A stretch of DNA of 46,368 nt, taken from positions 1-46,368 of the forward strand of contig JACPVZ010000100.1 in assembly GCA_016197305.1 (NCBI GenBank), given 5' to 3'. The notes under the pieces were generated by a model, which ran no database searches, was not told where the DNA came from, and was given only the letters and a program-made list of their open reading frames with translations. This document shows, in pieces, positions 1 through 19,486 of the stretch (position 1 is the first letter of the stretch; each line of letters begins with the position of its first letter). The translations under genes and the position numbers were made by a program. This DNA is from Nitrosomonadales bacterium. GTDB taxonomy: Bacteria > Pseudomonadota > Gammaproteobacteria > Burkholderiales > Gallionellaceae.

Positions 1-226
1 ACGGATCACCCAGAGCATGAACCGTCCGGGCAAGGTAACTGACAATGCGTTCATGGAATCCTTTTTCCATTCCATGAAGTCTGATGTCATTCACGGCAAC
101 ACTTTCACCGAGGACAGTCCGATGCTGTCTGTGCTGCGCAGCTATATTCCTTTCTATAACCGCAGTAGAATCCACTCATCGTTAAACTACGTATCGCCAG
201 CAATGTATGAAAATCAGTTGGCTTAA
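1..226 (+). mobile_element. IS3-family transposase (orfB, integrase core) C-terminal part, truncated by window start
   Basis: Translation ...NRPGKVTDNAFMESFFHSMKSDVIHG...YIPFYNRSRIHSSLNYVSPAMYE is the typical rve/DDE C-terminus of IS3 OrfB (DNAFMESFF...YN..R.HSSL.Y.SP). Confidence 0.85.
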
Positions 227-375
227 TCGGGTGTCAATTTTATTTGGGGAAGATTCGTTGGCAACATTAGCCAAATAGGGGCGAATGCGTTTGTTTATAT
301 CTATTGACAGCTCGCCATTTGGCACAAGACAATACCCATGCAATACAAACTTAATCTTTCAGGAGGGATTTATCG

Positions 376-804
376 ATGCGAAAACTATCTTATATGCCTA
401 TGTTGCTCGCGCTTCTTGGCTTCGTCAGCTTATCTGCTCAGGCAGACGTCACCACTGCTGAACAAGCTGCAAAAGATTACGGCCTCTTTGCAAAACGGCT
501 TAACCCGCAATCGACATTGTCTGCAGAAGCTGGGCGCGCCTTTTTCATCAAGAAGGTGGTCGTTGGCAGCAAGGATCTTTCTTGCGCTGCCTGCCATACC
601 GACAATCCAGCCAATCCTGGCAAGCACAATGAAACCGGCAAGCCGATCAAGCCGATGGCTCCTTCTGTGAATACGCAACGTTTTTCTGATCTCAACAAGT
701 CTGCCATGAATTTCTCGAAGCATTGCCGCGACCTATATGGTAAGGATTGCTCGCCCCAAGACAAGGGAGACTTCATCACTTATCTGCTGACCGTCAAGAA
801 ATAG
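376..804 (+). CDS. DUF1924-type monoheme cytochrome c, periplasmic
   Basis: Signal peptide MRKLSYMPMLLALLGFVSLSAQA; single CAACH heme motif; DUF1924-like sequence; AGGAGG-like RBS upstream. Confidence 0.75.
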   Translation: MRKLSYMPMLLALLGFVSLSAQADVTTAEQAAKDYGLFAKRLNPQSTLSAEAGRAFFIKKVVVGSKDLSCAACHTDNPANPGKHNETGKPIKPMAPSVNTQRFSDLNKSAMNFSKHCRDLYGKDCSPQDKGDFITYLLTVKK

Positions 805-814
805 CTGCAACATC

Positions 815-848
815 AAAAAATGACCCGCCATCATGGCGGGTCATTTTT
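815..848. terminator. Bidirectional intrinsic terminator between convergent cytochrome genes
   Basis: AAAAAATGACCCGCCATCATGGCGGGTCATTTTTT: near-perfect inverted repeat with A-tract and T-tract on either side. Confidence 0.9.
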
Positions 849-1296
849 TTTGTGCTGGTGCATCGCTCTTTCCCGTCGTTTTCACGCTGTCAGAAGCCAG
901 TATCCCCCGCACCATCACTTTCAACTCTGGCTCACTCAACTCGGGATGCGGTGGCATATTCACTCGCCCCCAAACACCAGAGCCACCACGAACGATCTTG
1001 TTCGTCAGATGAACCTCTACGGTGGAGGCCTTATCTTTTTTATATTTTTTGGCGACATCCTTCCACGCCGGCGCGCCTACCTTGTTGCCTGGCAAATGGC
1101 ATGATAGGCAGCGGGCCTCGGTGATGATTTCGTCGAATGATTTGACCTTTTTCGGCAACGGCTTCTCTGGTTCCGTCTGGCTGTCGCAACCCGTAAGCGC
1201 AACAAAGCACAGTGCGAGATTAACGGCCAGCAGCACCTGACAAACGCCACCAAGTGTCATTCCGGAAGCTCCGAGATTATTCTGGGCGCAGCCCAT
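841..1296 (-). CDS. Monoheme class I cytochrome c (c551/c552-like), lipoprotein-like N-terminus
   Basis: MGCAQNN... start preferred to avoid a long overlap with the upstream gene; hydrophobic segment ending LTGC; CLSCH heme motif; MPPHPELS distal Met region. Confidence 0.75.
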   Translation of the reverse strand: MGCAQNNLGASGMTLGGVCQVLLAVNLALCFVALTGCDSQTEPEKPLPKKVKSFDEIITEARCLSCHLPGNKVGAPAWKDVAKKYKKDKASTVEVHLTNKIVRGGSGVWGRVNMPPHPELSEPELKVMVRGILASDSVKTTGKSDAPAQKK

Positions 1297-1306
1297 TCTT
1301 TCATGT

Positions 1307-2956
1307 CTATTTGACCGCATCGCCGCCTCCGTGGAATCGGTGGCAACTGTCGCAAGTGCTACGGACTTTTTCCTTGACGGGCTGATCGCCAACATGGCAT
1401 TCACGACATTTCTCTATGGTTGGCATCGCAATATCCGCACTCGTTTTTGAATTCATCTTGTCATGGCAGGCCGTGCAGTCGGTCGTATCATGTTTTGCAT
1501 GAGAGAAGACGGATTTCGCATGCCAGTTGCGGTTAAGGCGCACTGGCGTAATCTTCCATGGCACCTCGCTGTCATCGGATGCTTCTATTTCATGGCATTC
1601 GGCACACCCGGCATTCTTGCTGAACAATGAAGCTGCGGCATTCCGCTGCGCCAATTCGGCGGCACAAGCCAAAGTTTGCTGGGGCGAATTCTCAGGTTTG
1701 CCATTATGCCCGCACTCCGCCATATTTTCAGGCGCGGCAACCAGCCATTTAGCGTAATAACTGCGCATCCTATTCATCACTTCGCGCTCTGAACCATGCG
1801 GGATCACGCCTTCGACCGGCGCGGTAAAGTCCAGTCCATGGCATCCCGATTGCTGGCAGGTTTTTTTCATGGATATCGGTTCGAAATGAATGCCGGGCTC
1901 GTCGGGTCGATGGCAATCGTGGCAGGACATCACAGTGTCGCCCTCCGGACTTGAGACCCCGTTTTTGTCCAAATGCACTTGATGCGAAAACTTCAAACCC
2001 GGCTGCTCAAGCAGCTTTCCTTTTTGATTCTGCAGAACGCGAATGGCAGGTCGTCCATCCTTGCCATTCTGCACGGTGATACGGAACGGCGGATGATCCG
2101 TGGAAAACTCATGTACGTTGGCCACCGTCGTCTTGGCGCTCCTGGACTTGATGTCGCCATGGCAAGCCACGCAACGCGATGAGTCATGCCGCGTCAATCC
2201 TGCCGCACCCTTGTGGTCAACGTGGCACTCCGTGCAGTGGACATCCTTGAACAGACTGGCATGCAGCGCATCGTCCGTCAGGTGTTTCCCCACTTTTTTA
2301 TGGCATGCGGTACAGGCATCGTCCGAGACGGCACGGAAGGCGCGCTGATGGCACGATGAACATTTCGCCCCAAACACACCATGCCCGCCAGACAATGGCC
2401 CGGGACTCCACGAGTCCGTCAGTGTGACAGGAAGCGATGACTGCCATTTATCCAGTTCGGAAGAAACGCCGGGCAACAAAGGCAGCAGCAGGAAAAAAAA
2501 GAGTATACAGATGGCCAACCCAAAGCTCAGTTTGCGTTTGCTCATTCCCAAGTTCGTCAACGTGACCGGACCAACACGGCGTACCTTTCCCGCGCCATGT
2601 ATGGAAGGCAACTGAACCGTCTCCACCGACAGCGAAATGTAAGGCCCGTTTGACGCCGGATCAACGACCAGCAGGTATGGACCGATCTCCACTCGCGCCC
2701 CAGGCGGTAGTGAGGCATTTTGTTCGACGACACCATTGATCTTAAGGGACGCTTCTCCTTCTGCCTCGATATACAGCTCTCCGTCTTTTGACTGTCTCAG
2801 CGTTGCATGATGCAAGGCAACTCGATGGTCGAACAGACGTATCTTGCAGGCAGCGCCACGGCCAATCTGGATAGACTCGCCGGCAACGGTGCTTTCCTTG
2901 CGTATGGTCACACCCTGCTGATTGCGCGAGACCCGAATTAATAAACAAAAAATCAT
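1307..2956 (-). CDS. FHA-like domain / TM / multiheme (about 10 heme) cytochrome c
   Basis: N-term IQIGRG...VALHHATL...KINGVV resembles FHA; one TM (LSFGLAICILFFFLLLPLLPG); CSSCH, CTACH, CTECH, CVACH, CHDCH, CQQSGCH (CX4CH), CAECH, CTACH, CRECH, CDSCH. Confidence 0.85.
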   Translation of the reverse strand: MIFCLLIRVSRNQQGVTIRKESTVAGESIQIGRGAACKIRLFDHRVALHHATLRQSKDGELYIEAEGEASLKINGVVEQNASLPPGARVEIGPYLLVVDPASNGPYISLSVETVQLPSIHGAGKVRRVGPVTLTNLGMSKRKLSFGLAICILFFFLLLPLLPGVSSELDKWQSSLPVTLTDSWSPGPLSGGHGVFGAKCSSCHQRAFRAVSDDACTACHKKVGKHLTDDALHASLFKDVHCTECHVDHKGAAGLTRHDSSRCVACHGDIKSRSAKTTVANVHEFSTDHPPFRITVQNGKDGRPAIRVLQNQKGKLLEQPGLKFSHQVHLDKNGVSSPEGDTVMSCHDCHRPDEPGIHFEPISMKKTCQQSGCHGLDFTAPVEGVIPHGSEREVMNRMRSYYAKWLVAAPENMAECGHNGKPENSPQQTLACAAELAQRNAAASLFSKNAGCAECHEIEASDDSEVPWKITPVRLNRNWHAKSVFSHAKHDTTDCTACHDKMNSKTSADIAMPTIEKCRECHVGDQPVKEKVRSTCDSCHRFHGGGDAVK

Positions 2957-2962
2957 AGCCGA

Positions 2963-3931
2963 CTACCAATAGAAAAGTATGGCCACGACATGTGCGAGGA
3001 GCGCAGCCAACAAAGCGACGGCCAAGGGCACGTGAAGATAACGCCAGAATTGCAAGCGGGCGTTCAGCTTGATCTCATGCCGCGCCCGCAATACCAGTCT
3101 CTCCTTGCGCAGCAATACGGCATATAGGTCGCGCATCAACTCCGGCTGCTCGTTCTTTATGTATTTCGAGCCAAGTTGCAATATTTGCCGTGCCGCCGAT
3201 ATCGTTGGGCAATTCCGTTGTTTGCCGCTAAGCTGCCGCAACAGGCTGCCACCCAAACGCGTTTCCTGACGCGCCTTCAATACCAACGCATTCACCTCAT
3301 CCGGCAGGCCAAGCGCATGGATGCGCGCCAACTCATCGAGTTCGGCGATCTTATGCAGCAGGTCGTCGAGCGTTTCCTCGCCCATGTTAAGCGTGATCAG
3401 GCGTGGGTAATTCAGGTATGCATACATCCCATAAAAACCACTGGCGATAACCAGCAACATCAATACATAGGACAGCGTATGGACATCCCACCCAAACTGG
3501 AATCCAGTATGCAGTGTAGCCAATACAATCAGCGATGCCCCGAGATAAATGTGCGAGGAAAGCCAACCCTGCAGCGTACCGCCGTGACTCCAGGCATCTT
3601 TGGCCAGGTGCCTGCCGCGATCCTCCCAGCGCCGCAGGGAGAAATCGGGTTGCACGCTGCCGGCTTGCTTGTGCCCGCCGTTTTTTGGGTGCGGCCGCTG
3701 ATACCGGACTCTTGGCGTGCGCCGCCGTGCAATGCCGTACCACAGCAACAACAGCACAATCAATGCAGAAACAATGCCCAGCACATAGCCCAACCAGGTG
3801 CCTCCATATGGCTCGTCTCCGACAGGCGCAAGCACATAAGTCACGATTGCAGCCACCATCAGCATGCTGGACAGCTTGAAATAACGATAATGCATGAAAT
3901 TCAGCACACCAGACCGTTGCGTCGTGTTCAT
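2963..3931 (-). CDS. Integral membrane protein, predicted diheme cytochrome b-like subunit
   Basis: About 5 TM helices; two helices each carry HX13H (HIYLGASLIVLATLH and HVPLAVALLAALLAH), a bis-His diheme b pattern; 4-nt overlap with upstream ORF. Confidence 0.65.
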   Translation of the reverse strand: MNTTQRSGVLNFMHYRYFKLSSMLMVAAIVTYVLAPVGDEPYGGTWLGYVLGIVSALIVLLLLWYGIARRRTPRVRYQRPHPKNGGHKQAGSVQPDFSLRRWEDRGRHLAKDAWSHGGTLQGWLSSHIYLGASLIVLATLHTGFQFGWDVHTLSYVLMLLVIASGFYGMYAYLNYPRLITLNMGEETLDDLLHKIAELDELARIHALGLPDEVNALVLKARQETRLGGSLLRQLSGKQRNCPTISAARQILQLGSKYIKNEQPELMRDLYAVLLRKERLVLRARHEIKLNARLQFWRYLHVPLAVALLAALLAHVVAILFYW

Positions 3932-6360
3932 CCAGGCTCCTTCTGAGAGGGTTTGCTGCCCCTGGCAACCTGGCTAAAAAACCCTTCCGGACTGATCCGG
4001 AATGCGGCCCCGGTCGGACAGGCATTGACACAAAGTGGTCCGCCGCTGATCCCTTTGCACAAGTCGCACTTGACGGCTTTTTTGGACATGGAAGAGCCGT
4101 CCGCATTTTCCTCTGGGCTTGGTTCTCTTCCGCTTGTGCCGAATATGATCTGCCAGATGCCGCGTTGCTCGTGCACATTTTGGGCGGCCATCTGAATCAC
4201 GCCATAAGGGCAATTCTTCTGGCAATTCCCACAGCCGATGCAACTATCGCTGATAAACACTTCGCCGTTGACCGAGCGGTGGATCGCGTCCGGCGGGCAA
4301 TCCTTCATGCAATGTGGATGTTCGCAATGGCGGCATGAAGTCGGCAAATGTATTTGTTCATATGTCGCCCCAGCCGCACGATTCAACCGCGGTATTCCGC
4401 CATGCGCGTCCGCGCAAGCCGTTTCGCAGTTATCGCAACGGATACATCGTGAATAGTCAATCAGCAAAACATCGGTTGCCTCACCCACCCCGTGGGTCAT
4501 CAGGAACTTAACGAGCCCGCTGAATTCATCATCGGGCGGTAGCGCATCAGCGCCGATACGCTCCAGATAACGGCTATCCACCTTGCTGCGTATCGAGGAG
4601 TTGCGCTCCATTACCGCGTTAACGCGCTCAGCCTCAAGCAGGATCGCGTCGGTGGGAGAGGCGGCGCGCACCGTCGCGGAATGCGGCATGTTGGACACCA
4701 GAGCCATTTCACCGACGTAGTTTCCCGCAGAAACGTACGCCAACACGACTTCCTTGCCGGCAATCAGCCGAGACACTACCACCGAGCCGCGTCGGATCAG
4801 ATACAAACCATCGGCCTTATCGCCTTCATTAAAGAGCGTCTCGCCAACTGCGTACTGTTTTAACTTGGCGTCTTGAACGAGGTGTTCAAGCTCACTTTCT
4901 GGAAGCGATGAATCCAGGGAATTCCGCACAATCCGCTTGAGCGCCACCTCGTCCAGCCTGCGCCTCACCCCCGGCACGGAATACAACAACTTGAGCATCG
5001 AACGGCGCGGCGTTTCGACCAGCACGCAGTTATCGCCGGCCACGGCCGTGCCTGAGCGACGGCGTCCGGACAGCAACCCCATCTCGCCGAAAAAATCTCC
5101 GGCGGCAAGCTGAAAGGCTGCAACCGCGCCATCCTTCCCTTCGGTGTTGATCGTAACGCTGCCGGTTAAAATCGAAAAAAAACTGTTGCTGTAATCGTTA
5201 CGCTTGAAGAGCATGTCGCCACAAGGCGGGAGCCATACCGTGCTGTCCAGCATGAACTCACGCAGCTGCAACGTGGTTAACGCAGCGAACAACGGCTGAT
5301 TGCGCCGGATCAGCGCAATGCCTTCGCTGACCGAGCCAACTCCCGGGACGCCGGTAAATTTTGCTTTTAACAGCGCCTCGTCTGCGGGTTCAACCGGATT
5401 CCCCAGGATGTATTCGACGACTTCATACCCCTGATTCATCGCCTGTTTGATCAGCGGGTAGCCAGCCAATGCCCCCACAATGTACAGCCCTTGCACATTC
5501 GACTCATATTGTTCCGACAGCTGCGGTACGGCAGTGGAGTCGCTGTTCGGGAAGCGCACGCCAAAGCTTTCTACCAATTGACGTGGCGGTTTCGCACCGA
5601 GGCGAGCGATAATGCGGTGACATTCAATACGCTCCAGCCCAAGGGGTGTCTGCACCACAAACACCAGCGGAAAATCATTCCCTGTATTTTCTTCGACACG
5701 CTCTGCTCGTGTGCTGACACGGGTTTCGATCCGGCCTTTAGTGACTTCCGCCATCAACAAGTCAAAATTGGCTTTCGTGCAGCTGGTAAATTCTTCCTGT
5801 CGATTGATGAAGATCACCCGATTTTGTTTGGACAGCGCCAGCGCATTCTCCACGCCGGTATCGCCAGCGCCAACCACGACGATCGTTTCACTGTTAAATT
5901 CGTCAGGGTCATCCAGCTGATATTGCACTCTGGGAAAATCTTCGCCCGGTACGCCCAGCTTGCGAATATTGCCCTGGAGTCCGATGGCAAGAACCACAAA
6001 TTCGGCGGTCATCATCTCGCCCGTTGCCAACGTAATCCTGAATGCCCCGCGTTGCCCGGAAATGCCCACAACACCTGCATTCACACGCAAGTTCACCCGG
6101 CATTTGGCAAGCTCCTCTCGCCAATTCTGCAGAATGTCCTCGCGAATTCCAACGCCGAAAGTCATGGTGCTGCGCAAAGGCAGTACCATGGGCTCTGCCA
6201 TTACCAGCTTTCCTTTCTGGTAGTGGTGCATGGTGTTGGCCGCATGAGTCGCAGCCTCCAAAAGGACATGAGAAACGCCTTGCGCAGCGGCTCGCGCAGC
6301 GGCAGACATTCCCGCCGGGCCAGCGCCGATAATTGCGATTTTAAAATTCTCAGTCATCAT
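3928..6360 (-). CDS. FAD/NAD(P) oxidoreductase fused to two cNMP-binding domains and a DmsB-like 4x[4Fe-4S] ferredoxin domain
   Basis: IAIIGAGPAGMSAAAR (FAD) and VVVGAGDTGVENAL (NAD(P)); two CAP_ED-like domains (GDFFGEMGLLSGRRRSGTAVA, GNYVGEMALVSNMPHSATVRA); Cys motifs CIRCDNCETAC, CRHCEHPHCMKDCP, CIGCGNCQKNCP, CDLCKGISGGPLCVNACP. Confidence 0.9.
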   Translation of the reverse strand: MMTENFKIAIIGAGPAGMSAAARAAAQGVSHVLLEAATHAANTMHHYQKGKLVMAEPMVLPLRSTMTFGVGIREDILQNWREELAKCRVNLRVNAGVVGISGQRGAFRITLATGEMMTAEFVVLAIGLQGNIRKLGVPGEDFPRVQYQLDDPDEFNSETIVVVGAGDTGVENALALSKQNRVIFINRQEEFTSCTKANFDLLMAEVTKGRIETRVSTRAERVEENTGNDFPLVFVVQTPLGLERIECHRIIARLGAKPPRQLVESFGVRFPNSDSTAVPQLSEQYESNVQGLYIVGALAGYPLIKQAMNQGYEVVEYILGNPVEPADEALLKAKFTGVPGVGSVSEGIALIRRNQPLFAALTTLQLREFMLDSTVWLPPCGDMLFKRNDYSNSFFSILTGSVTINTEGKDGAVAAFQLAAGDFFGEMGLLSGRRRSGTAVAGDNCVLVETPRRSMLKLLYSVPGVRRRLDEVALKRIVRNSLDSSLPESELEHLVQDAKLKQYAVGETLFNEGDKADGLYLIRRGSVVVSRLIAGKEVVLAYVSAGNYVGEMALVSNMPHSATVRAASPTDAILLEAERVNAVMERNSSIRSKVDSRYLERIGADALPPDDEFSGLVKFLMTHGVGEATDVLLIDYSRCIRCDNCETACADAHGGIPRLNRAAGATYEQIHLPTSCRHCEHPHCMKDCPPDAIHRSVNGEVFISDSCIGCGNCQKNCPYGVIQMAAQNVHEQRGIWQIIFGTSGREPSPEENADGSSMSKKAVKCDLCKGISGGPLCVNACPTGAAFRISPEGFFSQVARGSKPSQKEPG

Positions 6361-6521
6361 TCAGACACACCACGCCGCAAAGCTAGCAAACCCAATATCA
6401 AAATCCCGGTTCCGCGTCCGACCAACACCCTAATATGGCCATCGACCGAAACCAATAGTTGCGCACACTATACGTCAGTGCATGGTTTGGTGTGAATTCT
6501 GCCGATGCGGGAAGGATCGGA

Positions 6522-6758
6522 TTAAAGGCGGGCTTGAGCTTGTTGCAAATACAATTGCTCCACTTTTTTGCGAGCCCACGGTGTTCTGCGTAAGAATTTC
6601 AAGCTGGATTTAATGCTGGGGTCGTGGGTGAAGCAGCGCACTGGCACAGCGGCAGCCATCGCTTCCCAGCCTATGTTCTCGGAGAGTCGCGTGACTATCG
6701 CTTCAAGGGTGATACCTTCCAGGCTGGCAAGGCTTGCGGGTTTTTTAAGAATATCCAT
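6522..6758 (-). CDS. VF530/DUF2132 family small protein
   Basis: LEGITLEAIVTRLSENIGWEAMAAAVPVRCFTHDPSIKSSLKFLRRTPWARKKVEQLY matches the recalled family signature. Confidence 0.85.
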   Translation of the reverse strand: MDILKKPASLASLEGITLEAIVTRLSENIGWEAMAAAVPVRCFTHDPSIKSSLKFLRRTPWARKKVEQLYLQQAQARL

Positions 6759-6894
6759 TTTTTTATTTTACAGGGGATAGCCAGCCCGTGTAGGGTGCAA
6801 TCGTTGATGCACCGAATGGTAACGTCCGGTGCATTTTGTCCGCCAGCGCGGGCGTGGCACAATCGCGACTTGCCTGATTACTGAAGCCAAATCC

Positions 6895-7746
6895 ATGCTG
6901 AGTTACCGCCACGCCTTTCATGCCGGCAATCACGCCGATGTGCTGAAGCACTTTGTCGAGGTGCAGTTGCTGCGCTATCTGATGCAGAAGGACAAGCCGT
7001 TCTGGTACATCGATACCCATGCCGGAGCGGGTTGCTATGCGCTGGATAGCGGCTATGCGATGCAGAACGCGGAATACGAGAGCGGCATCGCGCGGCTGTG
7101 GCAACGCGACGATCTGCCCGCACCGCTTGCCGAATATGTGGCGCTGGTGAAGCGCATCAACCCGGACGGGCAGATGAAGCTGTATCCCGGTTCGCCATTG
7201 GTGGCGCTGGAGCTGTTGCGCGAACAGGACAAGATGCGCCTGTTTGAATTGCATCCGACCGACAGCGAGCTGTTGCAGCAGAATTTTGCCGGGCACGGCA
7301 CGCAAGTGCTGATGCAGGCTGCCGACGGCTTCGGCGCGCTGAAGGCCTTGTTGCCGCCGCCGCCGCGCCGCGCGCTGGTGCTGATCGATCCGCCCTATGA
7401 GGACAAGCAGGATTACCAGCGTGTGGTCACGGCGTTGCGCGAAGGGTTGAAGCGCTTCGCCAACGGGGTATATGCGGTGTGGTATCCGCAGTTGCAGCGC
7501 GCCGAAGCACGCGAGTTGCCGGAACAACTCAAGCAACTGCCGGTGAAAAGCTGGCTGCATGTCGCGCTCAGCGTGCAGGCGCCCGGCGCAGACGGTTTCG
7601 GCATGCACGGCAGCGGCATGTTCGTGCTCAATCCGCCCTGGTTATTGCACGGCGTGCTGCAGCAGGTGATGCCCTATCTGGTGCGGCATCTGGGGCAGGA
7701 TGAACACGCTGCCTATACGCTGGACTATCAGGAAAGCCAAGGATGA
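6895..7746 (+). CDS. rlmJ: 23S rRNA (adenine(2030)-N6)-methyltransferase
   Basis: MLSYRHAFHAGNHADVLKHFV...VLIDPPYE; start ATG at 6895. Confidence 0.93.
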   Translation: MLSYRHAFHAGNHADVLKHFVEVQLLRYLMQKDKPFWYIDTHAGAGCYALDSGYAMQNAEYESGIARLWQRDDLPAPLAEYVALVKRINPDGQMKLYPGSPLVALELLREQDKMRLFELHPTDSELLQQNFAGHGTQVLMQAADGFGALKALLPPPPRRALVLIDPPYEDKQDYQRVVTALREGLKRFANGVYAVWYPQLQRAEARELPEQLKQLPVKSWLHVALSVQAPGADGFGMHGSGMFVLNPPWLLHGVLQQVMPYLVRHLGQDEHAAYTLDYQESQG

Positions 7747-7786
7747 GCATGCTTGTGTGTACCGGCCATACGTTACAATTGAAATT

Positions 7787-8341
7787 ATGAGTAAAGCCTT
7801 TACCCGCGAAACCGACAACGATGACGATGATCTGGAACCATCGGCGCAGTTGCCGCTCGGCGTCAAGAATTACATCACGCCCGCCGGTTACCGCAAGCTG
7901 AAAGAAGAGGCCGAGTACCTGTGGAAGGTGGAGCGTCCCGCGCTGGTGCAGACCATCGCCTGGGCGGCTTCCAATGGCGACCGTTCCGAGAACGGCGACT
8001 ACATCTACGGCAAGAAACGCCTGCGCGAGATCGACCGGCGCGTGCGTTTCCTGCGCAAACGGATGGAGCATGCCGAGGTGGTCGATCCGGCGCAACGCGG
8101 CGCGTGCGACCAGGTGTTTTTCGGCGCGACAGTGACGGTGTGCGATGACAGCGGTTGTGAGAGTGTCTACTGCATCGTCGGGGTGGACGAGGCGGATGTC
8201 GCGCGCGGGCTGATTAGTTGGGTCTCGCCGCTGGCACGTGCGTTGACCAAGTTGCGCGAAGGCGAGGTGGCGATGCTGCGGACCCCGGTCGGCGTCACCG
8301 AGCTCGAGGTGTTGAGCGTTGTCTATCGTGCGCTGGAGTGA
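7787..8341 (+). CDS. greB: Transcription elongation factor GreB
   Basis: NYITPAGYRKLKEEAEYLW...ASNGDRSENGDYIYGKKRLREIDRRVRFLRKRM. Confidence 0.93.
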   Translation: MSKAFTRETDNDDDDLEPSAQLPLGVKNYITPAGYRKLKEEAEYLWKVERPALVQTIAWAASNGDRSENGDYIYGKKRLREIDRRVRFLRKRMEHAEVVDPAQRGACDQVFFGATVTVCDDSGCESVYCIVGVDEADVARGLISWVSPLARALTKLREGEVAMLRTPVGVTELEVLSVVYRALE

Positions 8342-8464
8342 AGTTTCCTCAAATGTTTTGGGGTGTGCGGTGACGATGTCGCGCATGGCCGGTTGTGCTC
8401 GCGGAAGCTTGGCAGGCTGCATGCCTGCCGGGCGCTGATTCGAACTAGGGTGGCCTGATACTTT

Positions 8465-9779
<1,315 letters not shown>

Positions 9780-9865
9780 ATCCCCATTCGGCCCGTTCTC
9801 CACGGGCTGATTTACCCGGCTGCCCGGCATGCGTATAATGCGCGCTTTGCCGAGGGCCGTTTCAC

Positions 9866-11326
9866 ATGCGCATCATTCAAAAAGCACTTACCTTTGACGA
9901 CGTTCTGCTCGTTCCCGCCTACTCGAACGTATTGCCGCGCGATGTCAGCCTGCGTACCCAGCTGACGCGCAATATCAGCCTGAACATCCCGCTGCTGTCC
10001 GCCGCGATGGATACCGTCACGGAAGCGCGTCTGGCGATCGCGTTGGCGCAGGAAGGCGGTATCGGCATCATCCACAAGAATATGTCGGCGTATGCGCAGG
10101 CTGCCCACGTCGCCAAGGTCAAGCGTTTCGAAAGCGGCGTGGTCAAGGATCCCATCACCATTACGCCGGACATGACGGTGCGCAGCGTGCTGGGCTTGAC
10201 CCGCCAGCACAAGATTTCCGGCTTGCCGGTGGTGCAGGGCAAACAATTGGTGGGTATCGTCACCAACCGCGATCTGCGCTTCGAGAACAATCTGGATCAG
10301 CCGATCCAGAACATCATGACGCCGCGCGAGCGGCTGATCACCGTGACGGAGAACGCCAGCCTGGAAGATGCGCGCAGCCTGATGCACATGCACCGCATCG
10401 AGCGCGTGCTGGTAGTTAACGATGCATTCGAATTGCGCGGCCTGATGACGGTAAAGGACATCCTGAAATCGAACGAGCATCCGTTGGCTTGCAAGGATAG
10501 CCTCGGCCATCTGCGTGTCGGCGCGGCGGTCGGCGTAGGCGAGGGCACCGAAGAGCGCGTCGCGCTGCTGGCTGAGGCCGGTGTGGACGTGATCGTGGTG
10601 GATACCGCGCACGGACATTCGCAAGGCGTGCTGGACCGCGTCAAGTGGGTCAAGATGAATTTCCCGAACGTCGAGGTGATCGGCGGCAACATCGCCACTG
10701 GCGGGGCTGCTCAGGCCTTGCTGGACCACGGCGCGGACGGTGTGAAAGTCGGTATCGGCCCCGGTTCGATCTGCACCACCCGCGTCGTCGCGGGGGTCGG
10801 CGTGCCGCAGATCGCCGCGATCCAGAATGTCGCGAAAGCGTTGCAGGGCACCGACGTGCCGTTGATCGCCGATGGTGGCGTGCGTTTCTCCGGTGACATC
10901 GCCAAGGCGATCGCATCGGGCGCTCATACCGTGATGCTGGGCGGATTGTTCGCCGGTACCGAAGAGGCGCCGGGCGAGATCGAGCTGTATCAAGGCCGTT
11001 CTTACAAGTCCTATCGCGGCATGGGTAGCCTGGGCGCGATGCAGCAAGGTTCCAGCGACCGCTACTTCCAGGAAGGCGAAAGCAATCAGGACAAGCTGGT
11101 GCCGGAGGGCGTGGAAGGCCGCGTGCCATACAAGGGTAGCGTGTTGGCGGTGATCCATCAGCTGATGGGCGGACTGCGCGCCAGCATGGGCTATCTCGGT
11201 TGTGCCGACATCGCCACCATGCATGCCAAGGCCGAGTTCGTCGAAATCACTTCTTCCGGTATCCGCGAGTCGCACGTGCATGATGTGCAGATCACCAAGG
11301 AAGCGCCGAATTATCGTATTGAATAA
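9866..11326 (+). CDS. guaB: Inosine-5'-monophosphate dehydrogenase
   Basis: [18 protein letters not shown]..., two CBS domains, [22 protein letters not shown]. Confidence 0.97.
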
Positions 11327-11332
11327 CACAAT

Positions 11333-11425
11333 GGGAAGGGAGAAGGGGGATGAGGGAAGGGTAATGCCGGCGCCTCGCTTCCCTTGAGCGCCGCTGGCGC
11401 GATCCCTTCTCCCTTCACCCTTCCC
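11333..11425. repeat. G-rich/C-rich imperfect inverted repeat in guaB-guaA intergenic region
   Basis: GGGAAGGGAGAAGGGGGATGAGGGAAGGG (left) and CCCTTCTCCCTTCACCCTTCCC (right) are largely reverse complementary. Confidence 0.8.
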
Positions 11426-11438
11426 AGGCTTTGAAACC

Positions 11439-13019
11439 ATGCATAAAAAAATCCTGATTCTCGATTTCGGTTCGCAATACACCCAGCTGATTGCGCGCCG
11501 CGTCCGTGAAACCAATGTCTATTGCGAACTACATCCGTGGGACATGACGACGGAAGAGATCCGCGCCTTCAACCCGGCGGGCATCATCCTTTCCGGTGGC
11601 CCGAACTCGGTCTATGAGGATGAAACGCCCAAGGCGCCGCAGGCGGTATTCGAGCTGGGCGTGCCGGTACTGGGTATCTGCTACGGCATGCAGACCATGG
11701 CCGCACAACTCGGCGGGGCGGTGGAGAGCGGCAAGGTGCGCGAGTTCGGCTATGCGGAGGTTCGCGCGCATGGGCACTCCAAGCTGTTCGCGGGCATACA
11801 GGACAAGACCAACCAACAAGGTCACGGTTTGCTCGATGTGTGGATGAGCCACGGTGACAAGGTGACGGCGCTGCCGCCTGGCTTCTCGGTGATCGCTTCC
11901 AACGAATCTACGCCATTCGCTGCGATGGCAGACGAGGCGCGCCGTTTCTACGCCGTGCAGTTCCATCCTGAAGTTACGCATACCCATCAGGGCAAGGCGC
12001 TGCTCGGCCGTTTCGTGCATGGCATCTGCGGCTGTGCGCAGGACTGGAACATGCCGGATTATATCGGCGAGGCGGTGGAAAAGATCCGCGCTCAGGTCGG
12101 TAACGACGAGGTGATCCTGGGGCTGTCCGGTGGCGTGGATTCCTCGGTGGCGGCGGCGTTGATCCATCGCGCCATCGGCGATCAGCTGACCTGCGTGTTC
12201 GTGGACAACGGCCTGCTGCGCTTGAATGAGGCCGAACAGGTGATGGAGACGTTTGCCGATCATCTGCACATGAAAGTGATCCACGTCGATGCCAGCGTGG
12301 AGTTCCTGCAGCATCTGGCGGGTGTGTCCGATCCTGAGCAGAAGCGCAAGATCATCGGCCGCGAGTTCGTCGAAGTGTTCCAGCGTGAAGCCAAGAAATT
12401 GCCGCAAGCCAAGTGGCTGGCGCAAGGCACCATCTACCCGGATGTGATCGAATCCGCCGGGGCGAAGACCAAGAAGGCGCACACCATCAAGTCGCACCAC
12501 AACGTCGGCGGTCTGCCGGAAAGCCTGCATCTCAAGTTGCTGGAGCCATTGCGCGAATTGTTCAAGGACGAGGTGCGTGAACTCGGCGTGGCGCTCGGCT
12601 TGCCGCACGGCATGGTGTACCGCCATCCGTTCCCAGGCCCCGGTCTGGGCGTGCGCATCCTCGGCGAAGTGAAGAAGGAATACGCCGAGTTGCTGCGCCG
12701 CGCCGATGCGATTTTCATCGAAGAGTTGCATGCCACCAAGGATACTGATGGCAAGTCCTGGTATGAAAAAACCTCGCAGGCCTTTACCGTGTTCCTGCCG
12801 GTAAAGAGCGTCGGCGTGATGGGCGACGGGCGTACCTACGAATGGGTGGTGAGCTTGCGTGCGGTGCAGACACAGGACTTCATGACCGCACATTGGGCGC
12901 ACCTGCCGTATGAGCTGCTGGGCAAGGTGTCCAACCGCATCATCAACGAAGTGCGCGGCATAAACCGCGTGGTGTACGACATCTCCGGAAAACCGCCCGC
13001 CACGATCGAGTGGGAATAA
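11439..13019 (+). CDS. guaA: GMP synthase (glutamine-hydrolysing)
   Basis: [20 protein letters not shown]...GICYGMQ...[13 protein letters not shown]...ending PPATIEWE. Confidence 0.97.
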
Positions 13020-13311
13020 GGCGTAGTTTTAATACCTTGGCAGGTTCCATTTTGAGCTTTGCCTGTGCTCTGATGCTGATGATATCGGTAAGTGGCAGCC
13101 AATTGAGCGGCCGCTTTAAGGAGGTCAGAATGATAATATCGCGTGCAGCACAGTGCTGCGGATTCAACCGGTCGATGCAACATACTAGAATCTGCAGCCA
13201 TAAGCAGTCATTCAAATACGATAACCCTCACAAACGAGATAGAACTCATACTCGTGCTACATTTCTCTCCGTTGCCACCAAAGTTTCTTAGCTACTTATT
13301 TGAAAACAACA

Positions 13312-14853
13312 ATGGCTGGCAAAGAACCTTATAAAGTAATTGACGTTTTCGCAGGCCCGGGAGGGCTTGGAGAGGGCTTTGCTGCCTTGCACCATGGTGC
13401 AGAAAAATCATCATTCAAGCTCGCGCTTTCGATTGAAAAAGACCCGACCGCGCACAGCACATTGCTGCTGCGTAGTTTTTACCGTCAGTTTGATTCCGAA
13501 AAGATTCCGCAGGAATACTGGTCTTATGCCAAGGGGGAGATTACCAAGGCGGCGTTATTTGATTTTTATCCTCAGCAGGCTAAGGCTGCGGCTGAAGAGG
13601 CGCAGTGTATCGAACTCGGCAAGACCCCAGCGCATGAGGTGAAAAACCTCATCAGTCAGAGACTGAATGGCAGTGAAAAATGGGTACTGGTCGGTGGGCC
13701 ACCCTGTCAGGCATATTCACTTGTCGGACGCGCGCGTATGCGGAGTACCAATCCTGATTTTGAGGACGACGTGCGCCATTTCCTTTACAAGGAATATCTG
13801 CGGATCATCGCGGATCACCGGCCACCTGTGTTCGTGATGGAGAATGTGAAGGGAATACTTTCCGCGCAGCATTCCGGCAAAAAAATCATCAAGAGTATAT
13901 TGAGCGATCTGCAAAAGCCTGACATGGCAGTCAATGGCCAGAGTTCCGGCCTCGGCTACAGGCTGTTTTCGCTGGTGGATAACAAGCCTCCTGAGAAATG
14001 TGAGCCGGAAGACTTTCTGGTGAAAGCCGAAAAATATGGCATTCCGCAGGCGCGACACCGCATGCTTATTCTGGGCATTCGGGATGATATTCAACTCACA
14101 CCAAAAACGCTCCAGGAATCGGAAGCGACCACTGTTGCCCAAGCAATCGGCGATCTTCCGAAGATACGCAGCACTGTATCCAAAGAGCCTGACACACTTG
14201 AACTCTGGCGTGAAATTCTTGATTCGATAGCCTCAGAGGCCTGGTATCGCAAGGGGCGAAGTAATGGTCTGTCTCAAACAATCGAAAAAATTGACAACGC
14301 CTTGGCGTCCATACAGAAACGCGAGTTGATGGCAGGTGCAGAAGTCATGAGCTATACCGGCCATCCCAAAATATTCTCAGACTGGTATCGGCATGGCTGT
14401 GTTGACGTGGTGACCAACCATGCAGGCCGAGGCCACATGAGGAGCGATCTGTATCGCTATCTTTTTGTGTCCGCCTACGCGGCAGCTAATGGAAAATCCG
14501 TTCATCTGAGTGATTTCCCGACGGCGCTTCTTCCCGCACACCAGAATGTGCAGGAGGGTGTGCAGAACAGTCATTTTTCAGATCGTTTCAGAGTGCAGGT
14601 CGGTGGGCGACCATCCACTACAATCACTTCCCATATTTCCAAGGATGGGCATTATTTCATTCATTATGATCCGTCCCAATGCCGCAGCCTGACTGTCAGG
14701 GAGGCTGCAAGGCTGCAAACATTCCCAGATAGCTACAAATTCGAAGGTGGCAGAACATCGCAGTATCATCAGGTTGGTAATGCCGTGCCGCCGTTGTTGT
14801 CCATACAGGTTGCTGCAATAGTCCATGACATTTTAAAGCGGCTGAAGATTTAG
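13312..14853 (+). CDS. DNA (cytosine-5-)-methyltransferase
   Basis: DVFAGPGGLGEGF (motif I), VGGPPCQAYSLVGRARM (motif IV), FVMENVKGILS (motif VI), QVGNAVPPLLS (motif X); TTG at 13300 is an alternative start. Confidence 0.93.
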   Translation: MAGKEPYKVIDVFAGPGGLGEGFAALHHGAEKSSFKLALSIEKDPTAHSTLLLRSFYRQFDSEKIPQEYWSYAKGEITKAALFDFYPQQAKAAAEEAQCIELGKTPAHEVKNLISQRLNGSEKWVLVGGPPCQAYSLVGRARMRSTNPDFEDDVRHFLYKEYLRIIADHRPPVFVMENVKGILSAQHSGKKIIKSILSDLQKPDMAVNGQSSGLGYRLFSLVDNKPPEKCEPEDFLVKAEKYGIPQARHRMLILGIRDDIQLTPKTLQESEATTVAQAIGDLPKIRSTVSKEPDTLELWREILDSIASEAWYRKGRSNGLSQTIEKIDNALASIQKRELMAGAEVMSYTGHPKIFSDWYRHGCVDVVTNHAGRGHMRSDLYRYLFVSAYAAANGKSVHLSDFPTALLPAHQNVQEGVQNSHFSDRFRVQVGGRPSTTITSHISKDGHYFIHYDPSQCRSLTVREAARLQTFPDSYKFEGGRTSQYHQVGNAVPPLLSIQVAAIVHDILKRLKI

Positions 14854-14854
14854 C

Positions 14855-15289
14855 ATGGATACGCTGACCTCGGAAAAACGCAGCTGGAATATGTCCCGCA
14901 TCCGAGGAGCGAATACAAAGCCCGAGCTGGCTGTCCGCTCGATGCTGCATCGCATGGGATACCGATTCAGAATTGCGAATAAGACCCTTCCAGGGAGACC
15001 GGATATCGTTCTCCCAAAATACAGGGCTGTAATCTTTGTTCATGGATGTTTCTGGCATCGGCATCAGGGGTGCAAATATGCGTATACGCCGAAATCCCGT
15101 CTGGATTTCTGGGGGCGGAAATTTGAGGGGAATGTCATGCGGGATAAAAATAATCTTTCTCTTCTCAAGAAAACAGGCTGGCTCCCCATTGTCATATGGG
15201 AATGCGAAATCAAACACAATGCTGACGCTGCGCTTGGCAGAGTATCTGGAATTTTGCAGCGACGCCTGAGAAAACTGGTGGTGGCCTGA
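14855..15289 (+). CDS. vsr: Very short patch repair (Vsr) endonuclease
   Basis: SEKRSWNMSRIRGANTKPELAVRSMLHRMGYRFR...LPGRPDIVLPKYRAVIFVHGCFWHRHQGC. Confidence 0.95.
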   Translation: MDTLTSEKRSWNMSRIRGANTKPELAVRSMLHRMGYRFRIANKTLPGRPDIVLPKYRAVIFVHGCFWHRHQGCKYAYTPKSRLDFWGRKFEGNVMRDKNNLSLLKKTGWLPIVIWECEIKHNADAALGRVSGILQRRLRKLVVA

Positions 15290-16767
15290 TGGAAAAATAT
15301 ACTCTTCCGCCGAGAGCAGCCTCGCTTTCCGAATCCATGCGGGATATTGGGTATTCGCTGGAGACGGCCATTGCGGACATTATTGACAACAGCATTGCCG
15401 CCAACGCCACACGCATTGATATATGGATTGATTTCAATACCGGGCAGCCACGGCTCGGTGTCACTGATAATGGCAGCGGCCTCAACCGGCAGGAACTCCT
15501 GGAGGCTATGCGCCACGGCTCAGCGCATCCGCGCACTCTCAGAGCCAAAGATGATCTCGGGCGTTTCGGATTGGGTTTGAAAACCGCCTCGTTCTCGCAA
15601 TGCCGCCAGCTGACGGTCATCAGTAGGAAGAGCGGCGACACTGTAGGTGCCGTGTGGGATCTGGATACGGTCTCGGAAGATGATGAATGGGTGCTGGGTA
15701 TACTGAACCCGGAAGAAATCCAGTCCAGCCCCTACATGGATAAGTTGGGCAAGCATGGAACACTGGTGCTGTGGCAGAAACTGGATAGGCTGTGCGAGGG
15801 AGAGTCAACAGCCGCGAAGCAGGATATGCTTTATGAAAAGATGGAAGCCACGGAAAAACATCTCGCTCTTGTGTTTCATCGCTATCTTTCTGGCGAAGTC
15901 AGGAATCGGAAACTGGAAGTGCATATCAACGGCCACCCAGTTGAGCCTTTCGATCCGTTCTGCCTCAACAATAAGGCAACACAACTACTCCCCGAGGAAA
16001 TCATCAGAATTGCCGGTGAGGAAGTCAGGATTCAGCCTTATATTCTTCCCCATCACAGCAAGCTTACGCCGAAAGAGCATGACTATTATCAGAGCCGCAG
16101 CGAGTTTGTCAGTAATCAGGGGGTATACGTTTACCGAAATAACAGGCTGATGGCCTGGGGAAACTGGTTCCGGCTGGTTCCAAAAGGCGAAGCCACCAAG
16201 CTCGCGCGCGTCAGGATAGATTTTCCCAATGCGCTGGATGAACACTGGACAATTGATATTAAAAAATCCAGAGCCCATCCGCCATACCAGGTGAAAGAAA
16301 AGCTCCGGCAAATCATCAACAGGATCGTGGAGCAGAGCACCCGCGTCCATTCTGGAAGGGGCAGGCGTCTTTTAGATGAGGCTCCAGACCCATTCTGGCT
16401 GAAACACGCAGATCGTGATGGCATACGGTATTCCCTGAACAGGGATCATCCGGTGTTGAACGCTTTCAGACAGATACTGGAAGGTGATGAGCAGCGGTTG
16501 TTTCAGGAAGTGCTGGCCGTCATTGAGGATTCCATTCCCGTAGAAGCTATTTATGCTGACTACTCAATCGCCCCCAAGAGTTTTGATGAAGCGAGGCAGA
16601 TGGAGCCAGAGGAAGTTCGAAGCCGCCTGCTTATGCTGTACCAGATTCTTTCCGCTGAACAACAGCTGGATGAAAATACTTTCCGGGAAACGGTTAACCA
16701 GCTAAAACCATTTAATAATTACCCGCAGGAAATTGAGTGGGTAATCAGGGAGAAAATTCATGAGTGA
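15289..16767 (+). CDS. GHKL (HATPase_c_3 / MORC-like) ATPase
   Basis: Bergerat motifs AIADIIDNSIAA, VTDNGSGL, GRFGLGLKTASF; TGATG overlap with vsr. Confidence 0.85.
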   Translation: MEKYTLPPRAASLSESMRDIGYSLETAIADIIDNSIAANATRIDIWIDFNTGQPRLGVTDNGSGLNRQELLEAMRHGSAHPRTLRAKDDLGRFGLGLKTASFSQCRQLTVISRKSGDTVGAVWDLDTVSEDDEWVLGILNPEEIQSSPYMDKLGKHGTLVLWQKLDRLCEGESTAAKQDMLYEKMEATEKHLALVFHRYLSGEVRNRKLEVHINGHPVEPFDPFCLNNKATQLLPEEIIRIAGEEVRIQPYILPHHSKLTPKEHDYYQSRSEFVSNQGVYVYRNNRLMAWGNWFRLVPKGEATKLARVRIDFPNALDEHWTIDIKKSRAHPPYQVKEKLRQIINRIVEQSTRVHSGRGRRLLDEAPDPFWLKHADRDGIRYSLNRDHPVLNAFRQILEGDEQRLFQEVLAVIEDSIPVEAIYADYSIAPKSFDEARQMEPEEVRSRLLMLYQILSAEQQLDENTFRETVNQLKPFNNYPQEIEWVIREKIHE

Positions 16768-19486
16768 TATTTCGGCGAATTTCGAAGACGCGCTGACGCA
16801 ATCCCTGAAGGGCGTCGAGAATCTGACGTCGCAATACATTGCTGAGTTTGCTGCCAGGCTGGCACCTGTCTATGGAGTCAGCGAAAACAGACTTGCAGAG
16901 GTGGTTAAAAATCTGGAAACCAAGCTTGTTACCACCCAAGGTGCAGGTACTTCCATCGTGGATCAGCATACTGAACATGATGATACATGGCATGAAAGAA
17001 GAGAAGACATCAACTGGGATTACTGGAAGGATTATGAAAAGCAGTTGATTGCAGAAAGTTGGGGGCCGCATGTTGTCAGCACGATGGGAGATGTCACAGG
17101 AAAAATTCTTGGCTTGTTGAAAAATCCAGAGGACGTAGGGGATTGGAAACGCAGAGGGCTGGTAATCGGCCATGTGCAATCAGGGAAAACGGCAAACTAT
17201 ATCGGCCTGATCTCAAAAGCGGCAGATGCCGGGTACAAGTTCATCATCGTCATCGCCGGCATACACAACAACCTGCGCGCGCAGACGCAGCAGCGTGTGG
17301 ATGAAGGGTTTATCGGACGAAGCAGCGATCCAAACAGAAGGGGGAAGCTGCTGGGTGTTGGTATTCTGCATCCGAACCGGCGTTTCCCCGTTACGTTGAC
17401 CACTACGGACAAGGATTTCGACAAGCGCTTCGCCAGCCAGCTGGGCGGCGACTTGCAGGTATATAAGCAACCGGTCATTGTGGTGATCAAGAAGAATGTA
17501 TCCACACTGAAGAGTCTTTATTCCTGGCTGAAGGAATTGAATACACGGGAGTCAGCGGACAAGATTGATAATATCCCCATGTTGATGATTGATGACGAGG
17601 CGGATAATGCGTCTATCAACACCAACAGAGAAGACCTTGACCCCACAGCGACCAACAGGGAGCTCAGGAATATCCTCAGCCTGTTCAGGAAGAGTTGCTA
17701 TGTCGGTTATACGGCTACGCCGTTCGCCAATATATTCATTGATCCAGATACGGATAAAGAGATGCTTGACGATCTCGATCTTTTTCCAAGGGATTTTATC
17801 TATTGCCTCGATGCGCCAACCAACTATTTCGGCCCGCAGAAAGTATTCGTTGATGAGGAGTCGAGTTCGTCCATTCTGAGAACGATAGACGATGCTGAAG
17901 TTATTGTTCCACTCAAGCACAAGAAGGATCATCTCGTCAGCGAGCTGCCGATTTCGCTGAAAAAGGCCATTCACGCATTCATTGTCGGGAATGCCATCCG
18001 CATTGCCAGAGAGCACCGCAACAAACATGCATCCATGATGGTAAATGCATCGCGGTTCGTGGATGTGCAGCGCCAGTTCAGGGCGCATATTTCCCTATAC
18101 ATGAAAGAAATAAAGAATGCCGTGATGTTCAACTATGCGCTGCCAGAGGAGAAGGCGCTTAAAGACACTCACATGCGGGCATTGCGGGAAATATTTGATG
18201 AGGAATTTTCGGGTGGACGCGAATCCTGGCAGGATATTCAGAAAGTTCTGTATGAAGCTGTAGATGCCATAAAAATATTCGTGGTAAACAGCAAATCAGA
18301 TGAAGCGCTCGATTACCGCTGGGCGGAAGAAAATGGTGAATCGCTCACCGCGCTTGCCATTGGTGGGTTGAGCCTGTCACGCGGCCTTACCCTTGAAGGG
18401 TTGATGGTCAGTTACATGTACCGGAATACCAAGATGTATGACACGCTCATGCAGATGGGCCGCTGGTTCGGTTATCGCGCAGGCTATGAGGATTTGTGCC
18501 GCGTCTGGCTGCCGTCAGAGTCGCAGGGATGGTATTCGCATATTGCAGAAGCCACCGAGGAACTGCGCCAGCAGATCAAGCAGATGCGCCGGGATCGCCT
18601 GAGTCCGATAGATTTCGGCCTGTATGTTCGGGCACATCCGGATGCTTTGCTTGTTACGGCGCTTAACAAAATGCGTGACGCAGAGCGCAGGCCATTCAAA
18701 ATTAACCTCAGCGGCACACTGACGGAAACATTTATTGTGCCGTCCGACACAGGCATTGTCAGTGAGAATCAGGAACTGATGAAGAAGCTTTTTGCCGATC
18801 TGCAGCAGCACTATCCTGTCCAGCGGAAACCTGTTGGGAATTCTTACTTCTGGGAGGCTGTTGATTGGGAACTGGCCGAGAAATTTCTCATGGAATTTAA
18901 ATTCCACCGGCAGATTCAGGATAAAAAAACCACTGCCCTCGATTATCTGCGGAAAGTTTCTGATAAATACCCAGCGGTGGATATCGCTTTTATTTCTCTT
19001 GAGAGACCGAAACCCAGCACTACGGATTTTAGAATTTCCGGCATGGATGTTATGTATTGCCAGGAGCGCGCGGTTGGAGCCTCGGCCAAAGGAGGCATCC
19101 GTGAACCTCTTGAGGAAAAAGGCTATTACATCACCAACAAGCAGCGTGTCGCCAGCCGTGGTGCTGAATCAATTGGGCTGGGGGACGACCTGCGGAAAAA
19201 AGCTGAAGCGACCGCTGAGGAAGACGGGATGAACATAGCCGATAAATACTACCGGGAGATGCGTCCACGCCCACTGCTGATGCTGCATGCAGTGAAGCTG
19301 GTGCATAAAATAAAAGAGAAAAACATTGAAGAGCTGTTGCTTGATCAGGTTCCGGCAATGGGTATCAGTTTCCCCGGTGGCGACTATTCAATAACGGTGG
19401 ACTATGTGGTGAACAAAGTCTGGGTGAAGCAGATGCAGGAAGAATCATTCGATGATCCGGATGAGGAAGAGGACTATGACAATTGA
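16760..19486 (+). CDS. Z1 domain-containing SF2-like ATPase
   Basis: GHVQSGKTANYIGLI (Walker A), MLMIDDEADNASIN (Walker B), VGYTATPFANIFID, GGLSLSRGLTLEGL, QMGRWFGYRAGYEDLCRVW; ATGAGTGA overlap with upstream gene. Confidence 0.92.
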   Translation: MSDISANFEDALTQSLKGVENLTSQYIAEFAARLAPVYGVSENRLAEVVKNLETKLVTTQGAGTSIVDQHTEHDDTWHERREDINWDYWKDYEKQLIAESWGPHVVSTMGDVTGKILGLLKNPEDVGDWKRRGLVIGHVQSGKTANYIGLISKAADAGYKFIIVIAGIHNNLRAQTQQRVDEGFIGRSSDPNRRGKLLGVGILHPNRRFPVTLTTTDKDFDKRFASQLGGDLQVYKQPVIVVIKKNVSTLKSLYSWLKELNTRESADKIDNIPMLMIDDEADNASINTNREDLDPTATNRELRNILSLFRKSCYVGYTATPFANIFIDPDTDKEMLDDLDLFPRDFIYCLDAPTNYFGPQKVFVDEESSSSILRTIDDAEVIVPLKHKKDHLVSELPISLKKAIHAFIVGNAIRIAREHRNKHASMMVNASRFVDVQRQFRAHISLYMKEIKNAVMFNYALPEEKALKDTHMRALREIFDEEFSGGRESWQDIQKVLYEAVDAIKIFVVNSKSDEALDYRWAEENGESLTALAIGGLSLSRGLTLEGLMVSYMYRNTKMYDTLMQMGRWFGYRAGYEDLCRVWLPSESQGWYSHIAEATEELRQQIKQMRRDRLSPIDFGLYVRAHPDALLVTALNKMRDAERRPFKINLSGTLTETFIVPSDTGIVSENQELMKKLFADLQQHYPVQRKPVGNSYFWEAVDWELAEKFLMEFKFHRQIQDKKTTALDYLRKVSDKYPAVDIAFISLERPKPSTTDFRISGMDVMYCQERAVGASAKGGIREPLEEKGYYITNKQRVASRGAESIGLGDDLRKKAEATAEEDGMNIADKYYREMRPRPLLMLHAVKLVHKIKEKNIEELLLDQVPAMGISFPGGDYSITVDYVVNKVWVKQMQEESFDDPDEEEDYDN

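Follow-up and report, generated by a model that had tools for sequence, protein, structure and literature searches.

What system do the four head-to-tail genes on the minus strand of a 46,368-base contig from a Gallionellaceae metagenome genome (80% complete) encode? We refer to the whole contig as the window and to the four genes, from upstream to downstream, as A, B, C, and D; an initial annotation of the locus had proposed for them a transmembrane redox complex gated by signals at both ends. The reading that we favor, with moderate confidence, is that A, B, and C constitute the inner-membrane module of a multiheme conduit, in which they would act as a transmembrane NAD(P)H:decaheme-cytochrome-c oxidoreductase. 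A-B-C is a widespread module that has apparently gone undescribed: the initial annotation knew of no characterized complex with this subunit set, we likewise found none in the literature, and no description of an operon combining FHA or cyclic-nucleotide domains with multiheme cytochromes was found in the literature either, with subscription papers and supplements outside our reach. The locus is laid out as follows (aa, amino acids; nt, nucleotides).

3928..6360, minus strand: gene A, 810 aa, with an FAD/NAD(P) domain, two cyclic-nucleotide-binding (CNB) domains, and a predicted four-cluster [4Fe-4S] domain, from Pfam, PDB similarity, and 16 invariant cysteines
3928..3931, minus strand: stop/start overlap of A and B, ATGA
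2963..3931, minus strand: gene B, 322 aa, a predicted inner-membrane diheme b protein, from alignment, conservation in 64/64 relatives, charge distribution, and a published motif definition
2957..2962, minus strand: spacer of 6 nt between B and C
1307..2956, minus strand: gene C, 549 aa, with an FHA-like domain, one transmembrane (TM) segment, and a decaheme c part, from Pfam, alignment, and ten motifs in 64/64 relatives
841..1320, minus strand: gene D, 159 aa, a monoheme c-type lipoprotein, accessory, with GGAGG before the ATG at 1320

The ATGA overlap and the 6-nt gap, both claimed by the initial annotation, were verified in the window, as were its positions for A, B, and C; the extent given for D, 841-1404, is doubtful, 841-1320 being likelier. 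The spacer between B and C measures 5 to 7 nt across 16/16 Gallionellaceae loci. For all comparisons with relatives, we made use of 64 fetched loci from 19 proteobacterial families, with residue conservation scored across 64 relatives for B, 64 for C, and 60 for A.

Gene A carries the cofactors at which the chain would begin. Its N-terminus is a YpdA/thioredoxin-reductase-type FAD/NAD(P) domain (Pfam Pyr_redox_2, 98.8 bits), which stays below the YpdA bacillithiol disulfide reductase model TIGR04018 (114 bits versus an NCBIfam cut-off of 339.9). There follow two stretches matching cNMP_binding (PF00027, 128.9 bits versus a cut-off of 27.5), at about residues 372-470 and 487-600, and a C-terminal region at about 630-790 in which Pfam finds Fer4 domains and 16 cysteines are predicted to bind four [4Fe-4S] clusters; all sixteen are invariant in 60/60 relatives, and the cluster domain resembles HycB/HydN/DsrO. 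Similarity to PDB entries spans PKA regulatory subunits, HycB-like Fe-S proteins, and Bdr/YpdA. The claim that this protein joins NAD(P)H/FAD and four [4Fe-4S] clusters to two cNMP-binding domains is therefore borne out at the level of domains and ligands.

Gene B would take the electrons across the membrane. Alignment arranges its four histidines as two HX13H pairs (H127/H141 and H300/H314), each part of a WX3HX13H motif, with W123/H127/H141 on TM3 and W296/H300/H314 on TM5; both motifs are kept in 64/64 relatives, so that the lack of conservation in the b-heme histidines that the initial annotation had named as fatal to its proposal is not seen. TM4 bears SGXXG, with S164 in 61/64 relatives and G165 and G168 in 64/64. 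Hydropathy clearly resolves four segments, whereas TM3, which bears one of the motifs, falls short of the threshold, and a low-confidence AlphaFold model (pLDDT 45) has helices at all five expected TM places. Because the loop charges of B (positive-inside) put its N-terminus and two long loops on the inner side, H127/H300 would hold a heme near the cytoplasm and H141/H314 a heme near the periplasm. B has no Pfam family over the cut-off (MFS_1 and DUF202 were considered and rejected, their matches lying below it) and no relative in a PDB search, and Pfam gives no match to a ferric-reductase TM domain or FNR-type flavin domain in either A or B.

The same motifs define the inner-membrane proteins (IMPs) of the hypothetical porin-cytochrome clusters PCC3 and PCC4, which have five TM segments, SGXXG on TM4, and WX3HX13H on TM3 and TM5, and for which quinone exchange has been proposed, their HX13H pairs resembling cytochrome b of bc1 (He et al. 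2017, PMC5566968). B, as aligned here, carries every sequence motif of the PCC3/PCC4 IMPs. It might accordingly be supposed that B, sharing their HX13H motifs, links the decaheme to the quinone pool by electron exchange, leaving A as a side branch or regulator. We consider this unlikely: nearly all loci have A, with its four clusters and an intact FAD/NAD(P) site, and two have it fused to B; B showed no identifiable quinone-site motif; and the CNB/Fe-S protein of a PCC4-like cluster (L087) has next to it a reductase encoded separately, NAD-binding and equipped with a 2Fe-2S domain, again pointing to NAD(P)H.

Gene C would receive the electrons in the periplasm. It combines an FHA-like domain at about residues 19-100 (Pfam FHA, 28.2 bits versus a cut-off of 20.7) with one TM segment at about 140-165 and ten heme motifs (nine CXXCH and one CX4CH, CQQSGCH) that are kept in 64/64 relatives; the FHA-like part is predicted to be cytoplasmic and the decaheme part periplasmic. 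The membrane-anchored decaheme with an FHA-like domain proposed at the outset is thus confirmed, and an FHA match at E<=0.01 recurs in 17/17 Gallionellaceae and 16/19 distant C proteins. C is not an MtoA/MtrA protein of the DmsE family (TIGR03508 score 23.0 versus a cut-off of 192.2), and a PDB search returned no relative for it. Its FHA-like domain retains Gly-Arg and His (Arg33 in 59/64), and the position of the phosphothreonine-binding Ser is occupied by A, N, E, S, or D among the 64 relatives. As the domain is without a conserved phosphothreonine-contacting Ser, phospho-gating through it appears doubtful.

Gene D, the proposed fourth subunit, is better regarded as an accessory gene. It has a single CXXCH after a lipobox (LTGC) and no Pfam family over the cut-off. 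Its start is most likely the ATG at 1320, with GGAGG five bases upstream, and the longest open reading frame (ORF), to 1404, is probably too long; read from 1320, D overlaps C by 14 nt, by which it is predicted to be translationally coupled to C. Homologues of D adjoin C in only 2/16 related loci (L031 and L034), and D was rejected as a core part, not being conserved with A-B-C. If the initial annotation is taken literally, as a complex of four subunits with cyclic nucleotide gating A at one end and phosphothreonine gating C at the other, the domains are present as it described them; given that neither D nor the phosphothreonine Ser of the FHA-like domain is conserved, we regard such a complex as highly improbable. 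Convergent to D lies one further cytochrome gene.

376..804, plus strand: DUF1924 (SHP-like) monoheme c-type cytochrome, associated, not core (Pfam PF09086, 114 bits)

DUF1924 genes occur within a few kb of A-B-C in 7/16 Gallionellaceae loci, on varying sides, and this gene too was rejected as a core part, not being conserved with the module.

How far does A-B-C extend beyond the window? Counting strong B-profile matches only, B is found in 17/100 Gallionellaceae genomes, in about 17/369 class-level and about 15/399 phylum-level genomes, and in 51/151 genomes of one alphaproteobacterial family (f45), most likely the Sphingomonadaceae, because its closest named plasmid matches are all Sphingobium with the same gene order. 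Most of the A-B-C carriers found are not Gallionellaceae. Two other candidate carriers (L088 and L089) were rejected, having weak B-profile matches and no module. The initial annotation had allowed that the gene order might be limited to close relatives, which fails: C directly follows B in 64/64 loci, and A is upstream of B in 60/64 (58 adjacent, 2 fused), across the 19 families, far in excess of what chance would give. The fusion, a single ORF of 1118-1123 aa in two genomes of one genus, supports the complex that A, B, and C would form. Of the four remaining loci, the two in G739 have a full-length A at a distance of about 6-13 kb, G669 has one on a different contig, and G089 has a fragment of A at a contig edge. 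As expected for a unit travelling together, pairwise distances of A, B, and C correlate with r 0.93-0.95 over 59 loci, a correlation to which species relatedness also contributes.

It is mainly the contexts in relatives (mtoAB/mtrC and barrel/LVIVD) that lead us to read A-B-C as the inner-membrane module of outer-membrane conduits. In a genome of the window's genus (G090), one strand carries A-B-C, a monoheme c, MtoA, MtoB, and OmcA/MtrC, and then a second OmcA/MtrC, the last four with scores over the curated NCBIfam cut-offs (MtoA TIGR03508, 266 bits; MtoB TIGR03509, 370; OmcA/MtrC TIGR03507, 397 and 299); CymA was not found at this locus. Another genome (G042) has an mto operon, with its own NapC/CymA-type gene, 9 kb from the module. 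MtoA is present in 9/17 B-positive versus 15/83 B-negative Gallionellaceae genomes (Fisher p 0.004, uncorrected for phylogeny). In many gammaproteobacterial families, the operon consists of A-B-C, an HbpS-like lipoprotein, a barrel-like protein, and a ten-heme LVIVD cytochrome. The barrel-like protein (590-740 aa) is without a Pfam family, has a weak NCBIfam porin match, and reads as a putative outer-membrane barrel; the cytochrome (1260-1390 aa) shows weak similarity to ExtM, and a tetraheme c554-like gene is sometimes next. One genome (G780) has a PCC4-type module and A-B-C flanking a single barrel/LVIVD conduit. None of the sampled Gallionellaceae has the LVIVD cytochrome; their sole match, in the window genome, covers the LVIVD repeats and not the heme part. 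The domains, cofactor ligands, gene order, and conserved context of A-B-C are thus apparent from sequence comparison.

The HbpS-like lipoprotein, barrel, and ten-heme LVIVD cytochrome, sometimes with the tetraheme c554-like gene, form a conserved operon (L140 at 5812-13549, L143 at 2-7284, L141, and L142). This operon is apparently an unnamed outer-membrane electron conduit; a literature search combining LVIVD and multiheme found no paper.

A different use for the same electrons would be the supply of reductant to the periplasm, for cytochrome maturation, thiol repair, or detoxification, without any extracellular transfer. The sphingomonads, which are mostly aerobic, lend themselves to this view: 19 of their loci have a CcmH/CycH-type TPR gene close to A, in most cases divergent from it, and most of their loci have no visible porin in the fetched stretch. 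We nevertheless think it rather improbable, as a ten-heme LVIVD cytochrome occurs near the module in 11/27 f45 loci, the barrel/LVIVD pair is operonic in many gammaproteobacterial families, and G090 ties the module to mtoAB-mtrC.

In the conduit-module reading, NAD(P)H would reduce the FAD of A in the cytoplasm, and the four [4Fe-4S] clusters would relay the electrons to the b heme that B would hold near the cytoplasm (H127/H300), from which they would cross the membrane to its second heme, near the periplasm (H141/H314), and go on to the membrane-tethered ten-heme wire of C. From C, a carrier in the periplasm, for example D or an MtoD-like cytochrome, would take them to the outer-membrane conduit, which would be MtoAB/MtrC in some Gallionellaceae and the barrel-like protein with the ten-heme LVIVD cytochrome elsewhere. 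We infer that outward flow is favored: no other component of the chain is as strong a reductant as NAD(P)H, electrons on their way out are assisted by the membrane potential, and no site was seen that could couple energy to an uphill inward route. The module could conversely be used inward in iron oxidizers, as a direct uphill route from Fe(II) through MtoAB, C, B, and A to NAD(P)+, and its presence in iron-oxidizing Gallionellaceae, beside mtoAB in G090, is in keeping with such a role. However, Fe(II) at neutral pH is too weak a reductant for NAD(P)+ on general bioenergetic grounds, the electrons would oppose the membrane potential, no proton- or ion-coupling element was seen in the module, and most carriers belong to other families; inward use seems to us quite improbable.

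Several observations weigh against our reading of A-B-C as a conduit module with outward flow. Flow direction cannot be read from sequence, and in an iron oxidizer, conduits are expected to run inward. The co-occurrence of MtoA with B is confounded by relatedness, and in most B-bearing Gallionellaceae the module has no mto genes next to it. Across the 46 kb of the window, neither a porin gene nor a multiheme outer-membrane gene was seen, and the contig ends 840 bp past D; a porin beside the module, as in a porin-cytochrome cluster, is found only in relatives. Neither an MtoA nor a cytochrome-bearing LVIVD homologue was found in the window's 80%-complete genome. AlphaFold modeling of B from two sequences (the window and L009) gave pLDDT 45 and pTM 0.25 and did not confirm the heme geometry. 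Finally, residue 560 in the second CNB domain of the window is His in place of the phosphate-binding Arg, a change shared by L028.

Is the first electron transfer under signal control? The two CNB domains sit between the flavin and cluster domains of A, a position from which cyclic nucleotide could control that transfer, and we infer gating of A on this basis. The phosphate-cassette residues of the first domain (E426/R435) are kept in 59/59 relatives with residues there, and those of the second in 59/60 (E551) and 58/60 (Arg at 560). In 21 sphingomonad loci, C is followed by a gene like those of class III cyclic-nucleotide phosphodiesterases; it is annotated cpdA in Sphingobium sp. TomTYG72 and resembles the SpdA and CpdA models, below both cut-offs. 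A CHASE2/class III cyclase gene adjoins the module in four gammaproteobacterial loci (L115, L116, L117, and L119), accompanied in some of them by TPR and FecR genes, and in L117 the cyclase cluster runs into A on the same strand. With the CNB residues conserved and phosphodiesterase-like and class III cyclase genes as neighbors in relatives, cyclic-nucleotide control of A-B-C is plausible. Of the gating at both ends that the initial annotation envisaged, the CNB half is supported, with the Arg-to-His change in the window's second domain, and the FHA half is not. A CHASE2 cyclase reading was also tried for the cluster in L029, L030, L093, and L102 and rejected, since Pfam gives GGDEF-EAL in both loci scanned (L093 and L030); class III cyclases are confined to the four gammaproteobacterial loci above. 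In L030, adjacent GGDEF-EAL and HDOD genes lie upstream of A, and a homologous GGDEF-EAL gene lies upstream in L029, both loci being from Gallionella genomes.

The significance of the module lies in how electrons cross the inner membrane toward porin-cytochrome conduits, a step that is poorly understood in most iron-cycling bacteria outside Shewanella and Geobacter. A-B-C offers a testable candidate for this step, with gene linkage to mtoAB-mtrC in one Gallionella relative and to the LVIVD/barrel conduit across many gammaproteobacteria. It may be the point in the inner membrane at which electrons enter an extracellular route under the control of a signal, and it would connect NAD(P)(H), not quinol, to the wire. 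It is also present in about a third of the sampled genomes of one alphaproteobacterial family, apparently the Sphingomonadaceae, which to our knowledge are not widely associated with outer-membrane electron conduits. The CNB domains, together with the cyclase and phosphodiesterase genes that neighbor the module, suggest that a signal controls electron flow directly, and a culturable Sphingobium is a possible host for testing this. Only tentatively do we advance the further possibility of a third widespread class of inner-membrane electron gate in which cyclic nucleotide directly switches the passage of electrons from NAD(P)H to a wire outside the cell; if so, second-messenger signaling would control respiration at electron transfer and not only at transcription.

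The remainder of the window holds features apart from the module. The C-terminal piece of an IS3-type transposase (rve_2/rve_3; 2-226, plus strand) lies at the contig end; the assembly therefore stops at an insertion sequence, 840 bp beyond D. On the far side of A, a candidate phage-defense island occupies 13300-22519 on the plus strand, with the following candidate members.

13300-14850, plus strand: C5 DNA methylase
15289-16764, plus strand: HATPase_c_3/MORC-like ATPase
16760-19483, plus strand: Z1 domain protein
between the Z1 and AIPR genes, plus strand: 333-aa ORF
20450-22519, plus strand: AIPR abortive-infection protein

How, then, does A-B-C compare with known systems? CymA/MtoC of the mtr/mto pathways holds the same place, and A-B-C would fill the inner-membrane slot beside mtoAB-mtrC in G090; CymA, however, is a NapC-type c quinol dehydrogenase, whereas B is without a c heme and the donor entering through A would be NAD(P)H. 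The NADPH oxidase/ferric reductase (FRD) proteins are like A-B, as read here, in leading electrons from NAD(P)H through flavin to two b hemes on HX13H pairs across the membrane, but A-B-C has a YpdA/TrxR flavin domain in a separate subunit, four [4Fe-4S] clusters, and a decaheme c acceptor. Gene C is almost certainly cluster 403, to judge by its table entry: a "Forkhead-associated protein" with 10 hemes in 27/87 iron-oxidizing bacteria (FeOB), listed under "Other" (Hoover et al. 2023, PMC10734462 Table 1); the accessible part of that paper describes no operon, partner, or function for it.

The closest likenesses are to PCC3 and PCC4. The PCC3 IMP has the same motifs as B, to which its similarity is very weak (E 8e-4), and the remote B-profile matches include a PCC3-type locus (L090) with a 24-CXXCH cytochrome; in PCC3, cytochromes of 21-27 hemes, periplasmic and extracellular, accompany a porin, and no flavin/CNB subunit is described. 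PCC4, whose IMP is a 5-TM protein, shares with A-B-C a CNB/Fe-S protein, the IMP motifs (WX3HX13H twice, SGXXG), a decaheme c, and a tetraheme c554-like c, the last seen with A-B-C in some gammaproteobacterial operons. Two more of the remote matches (L087 and L142) look PCC4-type, the B profile matching the IMP of L087 at 1.3e-7, and in both a CNB/Fe-S protein without a flavin domain precedes the IMP and decaheme. The CNB domains of these Fe-S proteins appear as three stretches in L087 (Pfam) and as a match to the A profile in L142 (1485-3206); the main text of PMC5566968 makes no mention of cyclic-nucleotide or FHA domains. The cofactor chain proposed by the initial annotation, from FAD through four [4Fe-4S] clusters and two b hemes to ten c hemes, is supported, while the kinship with PCC3/PCC4 and the conduit context had escaped it. 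A-B-C differs from PCC4 in the fusion of the flavin domain to the CNB/Fe-S protein, in the FHA-like domain on C, and, in the window, in being without a porin; judged by its sequence features, it is a third branch beside PCC3 and PCC4, with a flavin domain fused on.

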